Part shown: in pieces, positions 27,138-33,266 of the stretch
Layout: each line of letters opens with the position of its first letter
Position numbering within the stretch: the first letter of the stretch is position 1
Assembly: GCA_003246895.1 (NCBI GenBank)
Contig: QKCL01000070.1
Location: forward strand, 1-40,441
Origin: Spirochaetota bacterium
GTDB taxonomy: Bacteria > Spirochaetota > UBA4802 > UBA5550
Direction of reading: 5' to 3'
Length of the DNA stretch: 40,441 nucleotides
The notes under the pieces: model-generated
Told to the model about the DNA's origin: nothing
The model's input: only the letters and a program-made list of their open reading frames with translations
Databases searched by the model: none
Program-made: the position numbers and the translations under genes

Positions 27138-28007
27138 ATGAATATAAAATCTCTTGAAATCTTTGTTTCAGTGGCCTCGGAGCTGAACATGACATCTGTT
27201 GCAGGGCAATTCTTCATGAGCCAGTCTGCGGTAAGCCAGACAATAATGGAACTTGAAAGGGAACTTGGAGTCAAACTCTTTGATAGAATCAACAAACGCA
27301 TAAGCCTAACTGAATATGGTAAAATATACCTGCCCTATGCAAAGAAAATACTGTCCATACATGATGAATCACTGTCCAAACTGAAGGGCATTAATCCCGT
27401 AAGGATCGGGGCAAGCACAAGTATCGGAATATATATCATGCCTGAACTGATTGGCGCCTTCAATACAGAACAGAAAAGCTATGATATTTCACTTAAAATC
27501 GGAAACACAGACAGTATTCTGGAAATGCTTCTTGAAAATTCAATTGATATTGCGTTCGTGGAGGGCAATGTAATAGACAGCAGATTCTGTTCAGAAAAAA
27601 TCTGGAAAGATGAAATTGTTTTCATCTCTTCCTGCAGACGTTTTAAAAACAGCCGGGTATTAACAACCGGTGAACTCTCATCGGAAGATTTCATAATAAG
27701 GGAGACAGGAAGCGGAACCAGAGCCATAATAGAAGAGAAGCTCATGGCTAAAAAAATCAAGCTCAACATCAGATATGAATTCGGAAATACCGAAGCAATT
27801 AAACAGGCTGTAATTTCGGACATGGGCATATCTGCCGTTTCCCGTATTACAATCAAAAATGAACTATCCTCCGGAAGAATCTGTTCATTCACGGTAAAGG
27901 GACTCACAATGGAAAGGTACTTTCATCTTGTCTCTCTCAAAGACAGACCTTCAAAAAAAACGCTCATTACTCTGACCGAGTTCTGCAGAAAATATTCAAT
28001 AAGATAA
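27138..28007 (+). CDS. LysR family regulator (YeiE/CysB-like), paired with yeiH
   Basis: 289 residues. The N-terminal helix-turn-helix covers about residues 1-60 (FVSVASELNMTSVAGQFF, then SQSAVSQTIMELERELGVKLF). The rest is a LysR substrate-binding domain with IGASTSIGIYIMP at its start. GGGTGA precedes ATG 27138. The gene lies just upstream of and parallel to a YeiH-type transporter, the pairing known for YeiE-YeiH in enterobacteria. It probably activates the transporter in response to a small sulfur-containing or organic ligand; that ligand is an inference from the family. Confidence 0.9.
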   Translation: MNIKSLEIFVSVASELNMTSVAGQFFMSQSAVSQTIMELERELGVKLFDRINKRISLTEYGKIYLPYAKKILSIHDESLSKLKGINPVRIGASTSIGIYIMPELIGAFNTEQKSYDISLKIGNTDSILEMLLENSIDIAFVEGNVIDSRFCSEKIWKDEIVFISSCRRFKNSRVLTTGELSSEDFIIRETGSGTRAIIEEKLMAKKIKLNIRYEFGNTEAIKQAVISDMGISAVSRITIKNELSSGRICSFTVKGLTMERYFHLVSLKDRPSKKTLITLTEFCRKYSIR

Positions 28008-28031
28008 TCTTATATACATAATAAGTATTAT
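27999..28031 (+). promoter_or_regulatory. Twin AT-rich palindromes, likely LysR binding site
   Basis: ATAAGAT-A-ATCTTAT (27999-28013) matches the LysR T-N11-A pattern. ATAATA-AG-TATTAT (28018-28031) follows four bases later. The first overlaps the lysR stop codon; both sit directly upstream of the yeiH promoter, the usual place for recognition and activation sites. Confidence 0.45.
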
Positions 28032-28059
28032 TTGTTTTACTTATCCTTAATAATATGAT
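28032..28059 (+). promoter_or_regulatory. Candidate yeiH promoter
   Basis: TTGTTT (28032-28037) and TATGAT (28054-28059) are 16 bases apart, and the start of transcription would be about 20 bases before ATG 28086. The -35 abuts the second palindrome, as expected for LysR activation. Confidence 0.4.
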
Positions 28060-28085
28060 TGTATAACTGAAAAACAGGAGACAGC

Positions 28086-29051
28086 ATGTTTAAAGGATTA
28101 TTGCTCTGCGCCTCTATCGGTTCAGTATCATTTCTTGCATCAAAATACATTCACTCACTGGGAAGTGTCACCATAGCCCTTATTCTGGGTATTGCCTTTG
28201 GGAATATTTTCCGGACAGATTCCTTTTCAGAGGGCATAAAGTTTGCAGAGAAAAGAATTCTTCCGGCGGCAATCGCACTCATGGGTGCCGGTATTAATTT
28301 TCAGATTCTTTCAAAATTCGGACCCTGGGTGCTTGCCCTGGTAATCTCCATAATAGCGGTAACAATTGGTGCAGGTATTCTGATTTCCCGTGCACTGGGA
28401 ATATCTCACAAAACAGGGATACTGCTTGGAATAGGGAATGCTGTCTGCGGATCATCCGCAATAATGGCCTCATCAAGGGTACTGGAGCCTGACAAGGAGG
28501 AGACTGCCATTACTGTTGGAACCGTAAACCTTCTCGGCATAATCGGGATATTCACCGCTCCGGCAATCGCTTCCGCCCTGCATTTCAGCAGCTTTGAGTC
28601 AGGGATGCTAATAGGAGGATCAATACAGGCCGTGGGCCAGGTTGTTGCTTCAGGTTTCTCCGTCAGCGACCAGGTGGGGCAGTATTCAACAATCATAAAA
28701 ATGTACAGGGTCCTGATGCTGGGATTTGTTGTACTTGCTCTCCAGTTTTATGTAAACAGAGGTTCAGAAAAAGGAAACGGAATAATAAGTTCACTTAAAA
28801 TTCCGCTTTTTATCACAGTGTTCTTCATTCTGGCAGGAGCAAATTCCCTGGGCATTGTACATCCATATATCCTGAAGGCCGCGGCCATTGGAGAAAAATC
28901 ACTGCTCCTTACTGCAATGTCGGCAATCGGCCTGCTCATAGACTTCAGATCATTTGTCAGTAAAGGTGGCAGGGTTCTCTTTGCCGGACTTATCAATTCA
29001 GCAGTACAGGTATGCTTCATCGTATCCGTCATGGAGGTCTTCAGATTTTAG
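28086..29051 (+). CDS. yeiH: YeiH family putative sulfate/anion exporter
   Basis: 321 residues, almost entirely hydrophobic, with about nine or ten transmembrane helices (PF03601 family). The family core GIGNAVCGSSAIMA is present, as is a second conserved stretch, GGSIQAVGQVVASG. These proteins are annotated as sulfate or taurine-related exporters in the inner membrane, though transport has been shown for few of them. AGGAGA lies four bases before ATG 28086. The adjacent LysR gene and the twin palindromes between the two suggest inducible expression. It ends eight bases from the convergent DUF1456 gene. Confidence 0.88.
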   Translation: MFKGLLLCASIGSVSFLASKYIHSLGSVTIALILGIAFGNIFRTDSFSEGIKFAEKRILPAAIALMGAGINFQILSKFGPWVLALVISIIAVTIGAGILISRALGISHKTGILLGIGNAVCGSSAIMASSRVLEPDKEETAITVGTVNLLGIIGIFTAPAIASALHFSSFESGMLIGGSIQAVGQVVASGFSVSDQVGQYSTIIKMYRVLMLGFVVLALQFYVNRGSEKGNGIISSLKIPLFITVFFILAGANSLGIVHPYILKAAAIGEKSLLLTAMSAIGLLIDFRSFVSKGGRVLFAGLINSAVQVCFIVSVMEVFRF

Positions 29052-29059
29052 GAAGCCTG

Positions 29060-29539
29060 TCAATCTCCGGATCTGTTTTTTAGATAAACTGCAAGCCCCG
29101 AAAAGAACCGTTTAAGAATCTGATCTCCGCATGGTTTAAAATGCTTGTGCCCCTTTTTTCTGAAAAGTGCGGAGAGTTCATGCTTTGAAAGTTCGAAACC
29201 ACCAAACGTGAATACCTCAAGCATATCACTCTCCCTGAAGTCCATGGCTATACGGAGTTTTCTCAGCACCACATTGTTATCCATGGCTCCTCCGGGCTTA
29301 TGCTTCAGGCCTTCAGGATTTTCAGGAACACCCCTGTAATTTATTATAAGCCCGTCCAGGAACATTTCCAGTTCCCGGTCCGTACACTTACGATAGCCCT
29401 CTTCCTCCTCCTTTTTCATAATGGAGGAAACTTCGGATGGCGCAATTCCATGGCCCGAAAGCTTGAATATCGCAGACATTGTATTTCCTGACATGTCAAG
29501 GGCATACCTGAGTCTTCTGAGTATATCATTATTCAGCAT
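29060..29539 (-). CDS. DUF1456 (YehS-like) duplicated-domain protein
   Basis: 159 residues made of two copies of one small alpha-helical domain: about 1-70 (NNDILRRLRYALDMS, LSGHGIAPSEVSSIM, ELEMFLDGLII) and 88-155 (NNVVLRKLRIAMDFR, FGGFELSKHELSALF, ILKRFFSGLAVYL). This is the DUF1456/YehS layout. Its biochemical role is unknown; the family is cytoplasmic. The gene begins four bases after the RRM gene, so it is the third gene of an operon with DUF2293 and an RNA-binding protein, which may hint at a role with RNA. That is inference from position. Confidence 0.85.
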   Translation of the reverse strand: MLNNDILRRLRYALDMSGNTMSAIFKLSGHGIAPSEVSSIMKKEEEEGYRKCTDRELEMFLDGLIINYRGVPENPEGLKHKPGGAMDNNVVLRKLRIAMDFRESDMLEVFTFGGFELSKHELSALFRKKGHKHFKPCGDQILKRFFSGLAVYLKNRSGD

Positions 29540-29543
29540 GATT

Positions 29544-30458
29544 CTATCCCTTTTTCCTTCCTGAAGGCCGTCCTGTCTGCCTGTTTACAGAACCGCTGAC
29601 CCGGCGCGGACGCTGATTTCTTTCATATCCGTCACCTGAGAATTCCCTGTCCCTTCTGTCTTTTCTGTTGTCACCATGACCGGATCTTTCCCCTTTCAGC
29701 ACCCGTTCAGAAAAATTCTGTGTACCACGGGATCCGCGTTCAGGCCTGCTCTCCCTTCCTTCACGGTCATCATTGTATCTGCCTTCCTTTCTGAATCCGG
29801 ATCCATGCTTTTTACCGGACTGAGCATGATCATCTCTCCTGCCTTTACCGAAACCTTCTCTTCTCCGTGAAAAATCGCTGCTGTACTCACTGCTACTTCC
29901 ATGAGAACGCCCGCCGGAATATTTATTTCTGCTTCTGTCAGAAGATCCCTGTCCCTCACCGGATTCCTCACTGTTTTTGTATCTTCCTGCGTTTCCTGAA
30001 AACCTTCCGGAACCGGAATGTTCCCTTTCTGTTTCAGAACCGGTATCTCTGCCCCTGAAACCGGGCTTCTTCATTCTGCTTCCGTATTTGGATTCCCAGT
30101 GTTCCCTGTCGCTCTTCTTCTTCTCGGCACGCTCTTTAATTTCCCTGGCCTTTTTGACCTTTTCCCTGTGAATGTTTTCACCATCTTCGGTATATCTCTT
30201 TATTGTGTTCTTTTTTGCGGCACCGGGCCTGAGTTTGAGGCTCACCCTGATATTACGTCCGTAGAGTTTTCTGCCATCAAGCAGTTCCACTGCCTTTTCT
30301 GCCTCCTCAGGCGTTGACATTGTTACAAAGGCTATCCCCTTCTTCTTTTTCTTGATTACCACACTTTCGACATTTCCGGCTTCCGAACAGATAGAACGGA
30401 TTTCACCTTCCGCCATATCAAAGTTTAGATTGCCCATGAATATTTCCCTGTTTTTCAT
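29544..30458 (-). CDS. RRM RNA-binding protein with long R/S/G-rich disordered tail
   Basis: 304 residues. An N-terminal RNA recognition motif (about 3-75) has RNP2 IFMGNL and RNP1 KGIAFVTM, as in bacterial Rbp-type proteins. After a basic helical stretch (80-125) comes a tail of about 180 residues made of R, S, G, E, D and K with hardly any hydrophobic residues (GGRSHGSSSEYSS, for example). Bacterial RRM proteins usually have only a short glycine tail, so this one is unusual. It should bind single-stranded RNA; the tail may add RNA affinity or drive condensation. The ATG directly follows the DUF2293 stop codon (TAAATG), so the two are coupled. Confidence 0.88.
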   Translation of the reverse strand: MKNREIFMGNLNFDMAEGEIRSICSEAGNVESVVIKKKKKGIAFVTMSTPEEAEKAVELLDGRKLYGRNIRVSLKLRPGAAKKNTIKRYTEDGENIHREKVKKAREIKERAEKKKSDREHWESKYGSRMKKPGFRGRDTGSETEREHSGSGRFSGNAGRYKNSEESGEGQGSSDRSRNKYSGGRSHGSSSEYSSDFSRRREGFGKGRRDDHAQSGKKHGSGFRKEGRYNDDREGRESRPERGSRGTQNFSERVLKGERSGHGDNRKDRRDREFSGDGYERNQRPRRVSGSVNRQTGRPSGRKKG

Positions 30459-31166
30459 TTACATACCTGTTCCATTTATCATGCTTTTATTTTCTGTTAA
30501 GTTATCAATTGCCGTTTTAAGCGGACACTTCGGAGACGGATCATCACCGCGTCTGTAGCTTTCAAGCACTTCAGACGATTTCTTCGCAAGGAGCCTTCGT
30601 GTTTCACGCCGCATGCCCTTTATTCGCGGTATAGTCATGGTATCGTAAGCCGTTGTTTTATGACGCATCCAGGCGATTACGGCCCTTGACGCCCTCTCCT
30701 GCACAGGAATCATTTCTGTGCGTGCAACGGTTCCGCTCCCCACTGGCACCGCGTGTTCCGTGACAGCTCCGGCGAATATCTCCTCCATTTCCCTGAACTT
30801 CATATGAAAAGAAAGAAATTTTTTTACCTCTTCATAAAAAAGAATCCTGTAGGCCTCCTGCTTTTTCTGCCGGTATCTCCGCCCGGACTCGAGCCTGCTC
30901 TGATATTCCATGCCGGACCTCATGGCACGGACATCTTCAACGGCATGTTTTACTATCTCCTCCGGTGCCCATACCCCCTTTGACATGATTCTCCTGCCCT
31001 TTCTGAAAACAACTTTCCAGTACAGGCCCTTTGAAGTAACTTTTCTGGTCACCGCGGCATCACCGGCAGGCAGAAAAATCCAGCCTACCGGAGGAACCGC
31101 CGGCCTGCCCTTCTCATCTGAAAGAACACCATTATTTCCCCAGGTAAGCGTTTTTATATTTTCCAT
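30459..31166 (-). CDS. DUF2293 domain protein
   Basis: About 235 residues from ATG 31166 (GGA six to eight bases upstream; a GTG at 31202 would add twelve). The C-terminal region around residues 165-220 carries the DUF2293 pattern: RAVIAWMRHKTTAYDTM, followed by IKGMRRETRRLLAKKSSEVL. The N-terminal part (GWIFLPAGDAAVTRKV, KGLYWKVVFRKGRR) is basic and not recognised. No catalytic motif is apparent, and the high lysine and arginine content suggests nucleic-acid contact. It is the first gene of the operon with the RRM and DUF1456 genes. Confidence 0.75.
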   Translation of the reverse strand: MENIKTLTWGNNGVLSDEKGRPAVPPVGWIFLPAGDAAVTRKVTSKGLYWKVVFRKGRRIMSKGVWAPEEIVKHAVEDVRAMRSGMEYQSRLESGRRYRQKKQEAYRILFYEEVKKFLSFHMKFREMEEIFAGAVTEHAVPVGSGTVARTEMIPVQERASRAVIAWMRHKTTAYDTMTIPRIKGMRRETRRLLAKKSSEVLESYRRGDDPSPKCPLKTAIDNLTENKSMINGTGM

Positions 31167-31314
31167 ATTTTTTCCAAAGATTTCCCTGATCAGAATATAC
31201 ACTAAAAATCTGACTGATAAAATTTCAAATTGCCATTTTTAAATGGGACTGATAAAAAACAATATCTTTTGTGCAACAGAGCATTATTATATTCAAAAAA
31301 TAAGGAGAAACCCC

Positions 31315-31609: not shown

Positions 31610-31969
31610 TCAGCATATTGAATCTATTGTCTGAAGCAGGTCCTCAAACCTGTAGGGCTTGTTCAGATATCTGAGAATATTTGCCTCCGAGGCTCTCTCC
31701 TGTGTGGAGGAATCATTTGATGCAGTGGTTATTATGACAGGAATAAATTTTGACCTGTGAATCTCCTTCACAGCCTCAATGCCGTCAATTTCATCTTCCA
31801 GATATATGTCCACTATCATTAAATCAGGGTCATTTTCAAAGGCGCATCTTATTGTGTCTCTGCCTGTTTTTGAAATACAGCAGACCCTGTATCCGCAGCA
31901 TTCAAGCTTCTTTCTGGTAACAGTTGCCACAAGGAGTTCATCTTCGGCTATGAGTATTTTTTTAACCAT
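31610..31969 (-). CDS. Stand-alone response regulator receiver
   Basis: 119 residues, one receiver domain and nothing else. The acidic pocket is AEDE, the phospho-aspartate lies in LMIVDIYLEDEIDG, and the conserved lysine in LNKPYRFEDLL. The long loop after the aspartate (YLEDEIDGIEAVKEI) is typical of receivers that work with HisKA_2 kinases. AAGGAGG lies seven bases before ATG 31969, inside the end of the kinase gene (22-base overlap), so the pair is co-translated. With no output domain it probably passes the signal on by phosphotransfer or protein contact. Confidence 0.9.
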   Translation of the reverse strand: MVKKILIAEDELLVATVTRKKLECCGYRVCCISKTGRDTIRCAFENDPDLMIVDIYLEDEIDGIEAVKEIHRSKFIPVIITTASNDSSTQERASEANILRYLNKPYRFEDLLQTIDSIC

Positions 31970-33210
31970 CGGTCATCCTCCTTATCAACACGGTCAAAAA
32001 CAATGGTATATGCAGTGCCTTTATTGCGGGACAGTTCAACAAATCCGTTAAGCTGCTCCACAAGGACTTCAATGAGCTCATGGCCAAGGCCCCTGGGACT
32101 GGCAATAACCTCATCTGGTATTCCGCAGCCGTTATCCCTGATTTTCATGCAGAATGTGCCTTCATTGAGCTGCAGGATCTGTACAGTAATCACTCCGTTA
32201 GATATATCATTGAAGGCATGTTTTATGGAATTAGTCACTATCTCATTAATAATTAGCCCCACTGTTACGGCAGTATCAATATTTACTATGAGGCGGTCAT
32301 CGATATTTACTTCCCACCTGTAGTTGTTCCTCTTGTCGTGAAATGTAATCTCAAGGTTATTCATGAGCATTTCTGTGTACTCTTTCACACTGACCCTCTC
32401 AAAATTCCCCGATTTATAGAGAATATTATGGAGAATACCCATGGACTGTATTCTGGTCTTTATGCTCCGGAATCTGGAATGTATCATGTCTCCGGTTTCA
32501 TTCATTGCCTGGAGATCAATGAGGCTTATTATAATCTGGAGATTGTTTTTTACCCGGTGATGCACTTCACTTAACAGCAGATCCTTTTCTCTCAGGGATT
32601 TTTCAAGCTGCCTGTTTACACTGTTCAGGGCAGCTATGGTTGTTTCCAGTTTCTCATGAGATTCTTCGAGTTCCCTTGACTTTAAAATCAGATCTTCCAG
32701 ATCCTTCTCAATACTGTCCCTGATTACAGTAATGAGGGAGATATATGATTCAGAATAAAAATTTTCACATGAATCGAGCACACATATTGTGCCGAAGACC
32801 TCACCGTCAGGCCAGAGTACAGGCAGTCCCATGTAGGAGATCATTCCAAGTTTTATGTCAGGATTCCTGTCCCATGCAGGATCCTTTTCTGCATCAGGAA
32901 CAATAAGCATCTCCCCACTTCCCATTACAGTTTCACAGTAGAGGCCCATATTAAGTTTTTCAGAATCACCGGGAGAATAGGGATTGCCCTCTGTCCTGCT
33001 TGAGATGAATACACTTATTCTTTCCTCCCCCACAGACATGATAAGAGCGGCAGGGATATTGAAGCACCCGGCAATGGAATCTATAATTCCCTGCCATTTA
33101 TCCTGTATATGCCGGCTCACTTCAGGCTTTGACCGGGATGTAACAGGAATTCTTACGGGGAAGGCCTCCCCCGAGACCTTCACTCTGGCATAACCTTGTT
33201 CTGAAACCAT
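31948..33210 (-). CDS. GAF sensor histidine kinase of the HisKA_2 family
   Basis: 420 residues from ATG 33210, chosen because GGAG is six bases upstream; ATG 33243 has no ribosome site. A GAF domain (about 30-180, CFNIPAALIMSVGEERISVF) with no membrane segment is followed by a coiled coil and the HisKA_2 dimerisation domain, with the histidine pair at 217-218 in SEVHHRVKNNLQI. The ATPase domain has INEIVTNSIKHAF and DNGCGIPDE. GAF plus HisKA_2 is seen in many light-, redox- or stress-sensing soluble kinases; the cofactor is not evident. The cognate receiver gene overlaps its end. Confidence 0.9.
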   Translation of the reverse strand: MVSEQGYARVKVSGEAFPVRIPVTSRSKPEVSRHIQDKWQGIIDSIAGCFNIPAALIMSVGEERISVFISSRTEGNPYSPGDSEKLNMGLYCETVMGSGEMLIVPDAEKDPAWDRNPDIKLGMISYMGLPVLWPDGEVFGTICVLDSCENFYSESYISLITVIRDSIEKDLEDLILKSRELEESHEKLETTIAALNSVNRQLEKSLREKDLLLSEVHHRVKNNLQIIISLIDLQAMNETGDMIHSRFRSIKTRIQSMGILHNILYKSGNFERVSVKEYTEMLMNNLEITFHDKRNNYRWEVNIDDRLIVNIDTAVTVGLIINEIVTNSIKHAFNDISNGVITVQILQLNEGTFCMKIRDNGCGIPDEVIASPRGLGHELIEVLVEQLNGFVELSRNKGTAYTIVFDRVDKEDDRWLKKYS

Positions 33211-33266
33211 TTCTTTCTCCAACCTGAACTTTAAAAACTCCATAAAACCGGTGCGAAAACAGTATC

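Follow-up and report, generated by a model that had tools for sequence, protein, structure and literature searches.

The window analysed here, a whole contig of 40,441 bases from a Spirochaetota bacterium (genome G000; products encoded on it are called window proteins below), carries three co-directional open reading frames (ORFs) on its minus strand, encoding a DUF2293 protein, an RRM protein with a long charged tail and a DUF1456 protein. The question raised by this locus is which of the three genes belong together, and what they might do. The initial annotation read the trio as an operon for an RNA-handling or cold-response condensate system, and as a description of the gene layout it is exact, the three genes, the TAAATG junction and the 4-base gap all being present as claimed according to the ORFs, Pfam profiles, and sequence (Table 1). 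The Pfam assignments are all far above cut-off: DUF2293 (PF10056) scores 70.8 bits against 25 (E-value 1.1e-19), RRM_1 (PF00076) 57.9 bits against a curated cut-off of 20.7 (9.2e-16), and DUF1456 (PF07308) a total of 184 bits (5e-55), its repeats reaching 95.4 and 91.8 bits against 27.

Table 1. Features of the DUF2293, RRM, and DUF1456 locus and of adjacent genes in the window
Feature	Position	Strand	Remarks
DUF2293 gene	30459-31166	-	235 aa from ATG; in-frame upstream GTG at 31202 also open
TAAATG junction	30456-30461	-	DUF2293 stop abutting RRM start
AGG Shine-Dalgarno-like run	30466-30468	-	inside DUF2293 3' end, ahead of RRM start
RRM protein gene with long charged tail	29544-30458	-	304 aa
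RRM_1 domain	30246-30443	-	residues 6-71
R/G/S/E/K-rich tail, low hydrophobicity	29547-30203	-	residues 86-304; probably disordered, judged from composition
Gap of 4 bases, RRM stop to DUF1456 start	29540-29543	-	exact in sequence
Purine-rich AGGAAGGAAAAAGGG, ribosome-binding-like, ahead of DUF1456 start	29548-29562	-	from sequence
DUF1456 gene	29060-29539	-	159 aa
DUF1456 repeat 1	29330-29533	-	profile match
DUF1456 repeat 2	29084-29278	-	third helix, residues 119-125
LysR regulator beside co-directional YeiH-like transporter	27138-29051		best NCBIfam match selenium-metabolism LysR / YeiE, below cut-off
Histidine kinase (best match PhyK-like) overlapping receiver-only response regulator (PhyR family)	31610-33243		both matches below cut-off

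A three-gene system with DUF2293 at its core is highly improbable. The TAAATG coupling in G000 speaks for it, but across our survey sets, 46 genomes of one Spirochaetota order and 392 genomes of the phylum, DUF2293 never adjoins the other two genes outside G000. Matches to DUF2293 above cut-off were obtained for 4 of 148 relatives, for 4 of the 392 phylum genomes (G000 counted), and for 3 of the 46 genomes of the order (G000, G021, and G030). As a core part DUF2293 was rejected, since the two other carriers in the order have neither an RRM_1 match nor DUF1456 anywhere in the genome. In G059, from another order, it lies on a separate contig from both the RRM and the DUF1456 gene, and none of these three other genomes with an above-cut-off DUF2293 has an RRM or DUF1456 gene beside it, the neighbours being different genes. 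Nor did we find cold-shock evidence for such a system. The protein shares with its relatives a full-length domain and the GSGTVART and RRE-RR motifs, but only in G000 among the genomes examined does its gene stand directly ahead of an RRM gene. Because it extends 13-14 residues past its three relatives and the GC content of its final 60 bases is 28%, against 49% for the whole gene, as if it ran into an older RRM leader, we infer that DUF2293 was inserted into the leader of a pre-existing RRM operon. We judge it to be a local addition, apparently a chance newcomer, which would be co-transcribed with the other genes by position only.

DUF2293 may have a conserved context of its own, as suggested by the shared neighbours in G021 (L007) and G030 (L008), where it keeps the same two nearby genes, encoding a MNIIEKNYKTLEKMQFL protein and, as judged by eye, a NUDIX-like one. 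Its predicted structure (four sequences; pLDDT 79, pTM 0.56) had no Foldseek match among solved structures at E 0.001, and the likenesses obtained in a second look, to XPC (best Z 4.6, residues 2-121) and to sigma-70 helices (~85-174, below the XPC score), were judged to be noise. A PDB sequence search gave a best E of 0.027, and we found neither relatives in viral contigs and plasmids nor literature naming DUF2293.

The tail-bearing RRM protein and DUF1456 constitute a lineage-restricted two-gene module in one Spirochaetota order. The 60 RRM_1 matches in the order are spread over 24 of the 46 genomes, and eight of these matches lie in long open frames (at least 300 aa; range 304-450). DUF1456 is present in seven genomes, and in six of them (G000, G003, G004, G014, G016, and G039) it is found 3' of a long-frame RRM gene, the gaps being, in order of size, 4, 14, 15, 23, 23, and 29 bases; the RRM gene of G004 has lost its first codons at a contig end. 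This part of the originally proposed operon is therefore upheld by its neighbourhood, the two genes being adjacent in the same order and on the same strand. Pairing is found for six of the eight long-frame RRMs, against 0 of the 52 others. G002 and G027 have a long RRM and lack DUF1456, and in G035, a genome that is 76% complete, DUF1456 has no adjacent RRM and none was matched genome-wide.

On a tree of the RRM alone the eight long RRMs cluster together, with an SH-aLRT of 90 and with 0 of 500 shuffles as low, the tree being weakly resolved with 48 domains, tails excluded, and 84 columns, and some of the 60 matches lacking a usable locus. A model covering the RRM and linker of seven of these (the eighth being the near-identical G016) scores all eight at 139-154 bits by construction; in the 392 genomes its next best matches reach 84.5 bits, in G315 from another order, and then 81.4 bits. 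The long RRM of G315 is a ninth relative, found only after the pattern had been set. Its gene exits the contig within an S/R/G-rich tail, and the genome carries DUF1456 on a different contig, unlinked. DUF1456 is above cut-off in 27 of the 392 phylum genomes, being carried by 7 of 9 with a long RRM against 20 of 383 others (both genes 7, long RRM alone 2, DUF1456 alone 20, neither 363; Fisher 1.1e-7, kinship ignored). The corresponding counts within the order are 6, 2, 1, and 37 (2.0e-5), and the single case of co-occurrence outside it, G315, gives a p of 0.06, kinship again being ignored in both. No publication describing an RRM-DUF1456 pair was found in the literature searched for DUF1456 and DUF2293.

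Since five of the six pairs belong to one family, much of the linkage may be due to descent, and the pairing could be inherited synteny with no functional link between the genes. In the first DUF1456 tree the paired genes did not group together, but an AU test did not reject a single clade (p 0.55), so that common inheritance of the order's DUF1456 genes is compatible with the data, and elsewhere the neighbours of DUF1456 differ. We regard synteny without function as rather unlikely, however, because the pair has been kept while the RRMs of the other pairs have only 33-44% identity to the window protein, because the flanking genes, compared by eye, differ among G003, G014, G039, and G000 and yet the two genes stay together, and because the sixth pair (G039) is in another family.

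The RRM protein likely handles RNA because it carries an RRM. In the window protein RNP2 (IFMGNL) fits the consensus, and RNP1 (KGIAFVTM) is an imperfect fit with one usual aromatic retained. The tail following residue 85 comprises 219 residues, 13% hydrophobic and 44% charged, with a composition of R18 G16 S14 E11 K10. All eight long RRM proteins have tails of like composition (219-359 residues, 30-44% charged, 9-15% hydrophobic, net charge per residue +0.08 to +0.13) in which the charges are not blocky, and this composition suggests that the tails are probably disordered. Between G014 and G016 the dN/dS ratio is 0.21 for the tail, 0 for the RRM, and 0.13 for DUF1456, and the tail is therefore translated and under purifying selection.

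The initial annotation likened the tail to those of eukaryotic SR/RGG-box proteins, in which an RRM is likewise followed by an R/S/G-rich tail. The likeness holds for composition but not for motifs. The window protein has neither RGG triplets (0) nor an SRSR run, and its RS/SR pairs (8 against 10.7 expected, a number reached in 859 of 1000 shuffles) and RG/GR pairs (12 against 12.1 expected; 561 of 1000) are at chance; unlike the eukaryotic tails, its tail is also ~17% acidic (E11, D6). Of the eight relatives, G039 alone shows a clear excess of RS pairs (2 of 1000 shuffles). The further claim that bacterial RRM proteins usually lack such tails is correct inside the order, where the other 52 of the 60 matches lie in open frames of at most 251 aa. 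Four long tails (G002, G003, G004, and G027) have a repeated K(K/R)EW...KP-like motif, which the window protein lacks and which might serve as a short interaction motif. No members of the long-tail RRM group were found in viral contigs.

A disordered tail on a bacterial RRM protein has a precedent: RbpPg1 of Porphyromonas gingivalis has 97 aa with the RRM at residues 3-82 and a disordered C-terminus (PMC12119571). RNA binding has been demonstrated by their authors for RbpPg1 (PMC12119571) and for RbpB of Bacteroides thetaiotaomicron (PMC11697453), and RbpB indicates that proteins of this kind can bind RNA globally (PMC11697453). Both have an N-terminal RRM_1 in common with the window protein, and RbpPg1 also has a disordered C-terminus after the RRM; compared with RbpPg1 as described there, the proteins found here have 304-444 aa, of which 219-359 residues are tail, and are linked to a DUF1456 gene. 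As far as we have seen, what is new is how long the tails are, the separate grouping of these RRMs, and the partnering with DUF1456.

The DUF1456 protein is predicted to comprise two four-helix units (model from 66 sequences; pLDDT 92.4, pTM 0.87). Its model had no Foldseek match among solved structures at E 0.001, and a PDB sequence search gave no relative. The best match in a second look with VIA-align was Aca1 (7vjm_A; Z 7.1, rmsd 2.8 over 64 residues), which is under the tool's caution line of Z 8, below which scores can reflect a common arrangement. The best 30 rows are all, as grouped by title, lambda-repressor-like or POU-type helix-turn-helix (HTH) proteins, and the modelled units thus bear a suggestive resemblance to lambda-repressor-like HTH domains. 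Residues 119-125 in repeat 2 are the most conserved element across phyla (3.89 bits against an average of 2.81) and match the position of the recognition helix in this likeness. Departures from the usual tandem form were seen in G255 (L195), where the protein has a single repeat in 115-117 aa, and in G379, where two separate loci have one repeat each (frames of 76 and 110 aa).

The fold likeness is to DNA-binding repressors, for example Aca1, CI, SinR, and C proteins, and regulators encoded within the operon that they control are common; DUF1456 could accordingly bind DNA and autoregulate the RRM operon, acting through its tandem repressor-like HTH units and forming no part of an RNP. We consider this unlikely in view of the unrelated genes beside which DUF1456 stands in many phyla, of the near-invariant third helix of repeat 2, more in keeping with a single universal ligand than with many operators, and of the RRM leaders, which share little beyond the region just ahead of the start. 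A search for a structured leader of the RRM operon gave no Rfam match.

Among the DUF1456 loci of named genomes, 5 of 80 have an RRM gene within 6 kb; one of these is G039 itself, and at the other four the RRM gene is short and lies on the opposite strand. The neighbours of DUF1456 outside the order show no enrichment in RNA-related functions, which were found for 11 of 49 against 4 of 25 controls (p 0.37), or for 14 against 5 with borderline calls included (p 0.31), classes having been assigned by us from Pfam names and not blind. The 49 are those with Pfam annotation among 68 scanned neighbours, left from 86 after RRM partners, neighbours of <120 aa, and near-duplicates were excluded, and the 25 those among 30 scanned controls, the first 30 in a shuffled list of 202 genes after the same thinning. 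The identification of DUF1456 as an RNA gene from such neighbours (Tex, CvfB, DbpA, DTW, RlmJ, MraW, and pseudouridine synthase) was dropped because controls scored similarly. DTW proteins function in tRNA or rRNA modification. A DTW-domain gene adjoins DUF1456 in G270 (L206), with a 4-base overlap, and in a Moraxellaceae MAG (L105), at 22 bases, and in G102 (L071) the gene before it encodes what by eye is a DTW protein. The Escherichia coli homologue yehS is called uncharacterised or unknown in two reports (PMC6131188, PMC8571399), in the first of which its knock-down or knock-out changes growth in n-butanol or n-hexane (PMC6131188).

We put at about an even chance the proposal that the module is a lineage-specific, tail-bearing RRM RNA-binding protein with a dedicated DUF1456 partner acting on RNA. 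The RRM would bind single-stranded RNA, and the R/G/S-rich tail, with its well-mixed positive and negative charges, would add many weak RNA contacts, by analogy with other RNA chaperones that have disordered tails. DUF1456 would be the dedicated partner, most likely an adaptor, or a second subunit that binds nucleic acid, acting at the same RNA or RNP, and the two proteins would be made from the same transcript with coupled translation. A more far-reaching version, which we hold to be quite doubtful, is that DUF1456/YehS is a tandem HTH-like protein whose single ligand, an RNA or RNP, is nearly universal, that it has become a near-obligate partner of the tailed RRM here, and that the two form a multivalent RNA-binding particle, possibly a condensate.

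DUF1456/YehS (PF07308, COG4807) has the same two full repeats here as elsewhere, but its neighbours elsewhere are unrelated genes, whereas here its neighbour is a long-tail RRM gene. The family is widespread across many phyla, including in E. coli, without an assigned function, and its tie to an RNA-binding protein in this lineage provides a direct, testable hypothesis. The long-tail RRM group, for its part, offers a bacterial case of a charged, probably disordered tail in which sequence changes fast and composition is kept.
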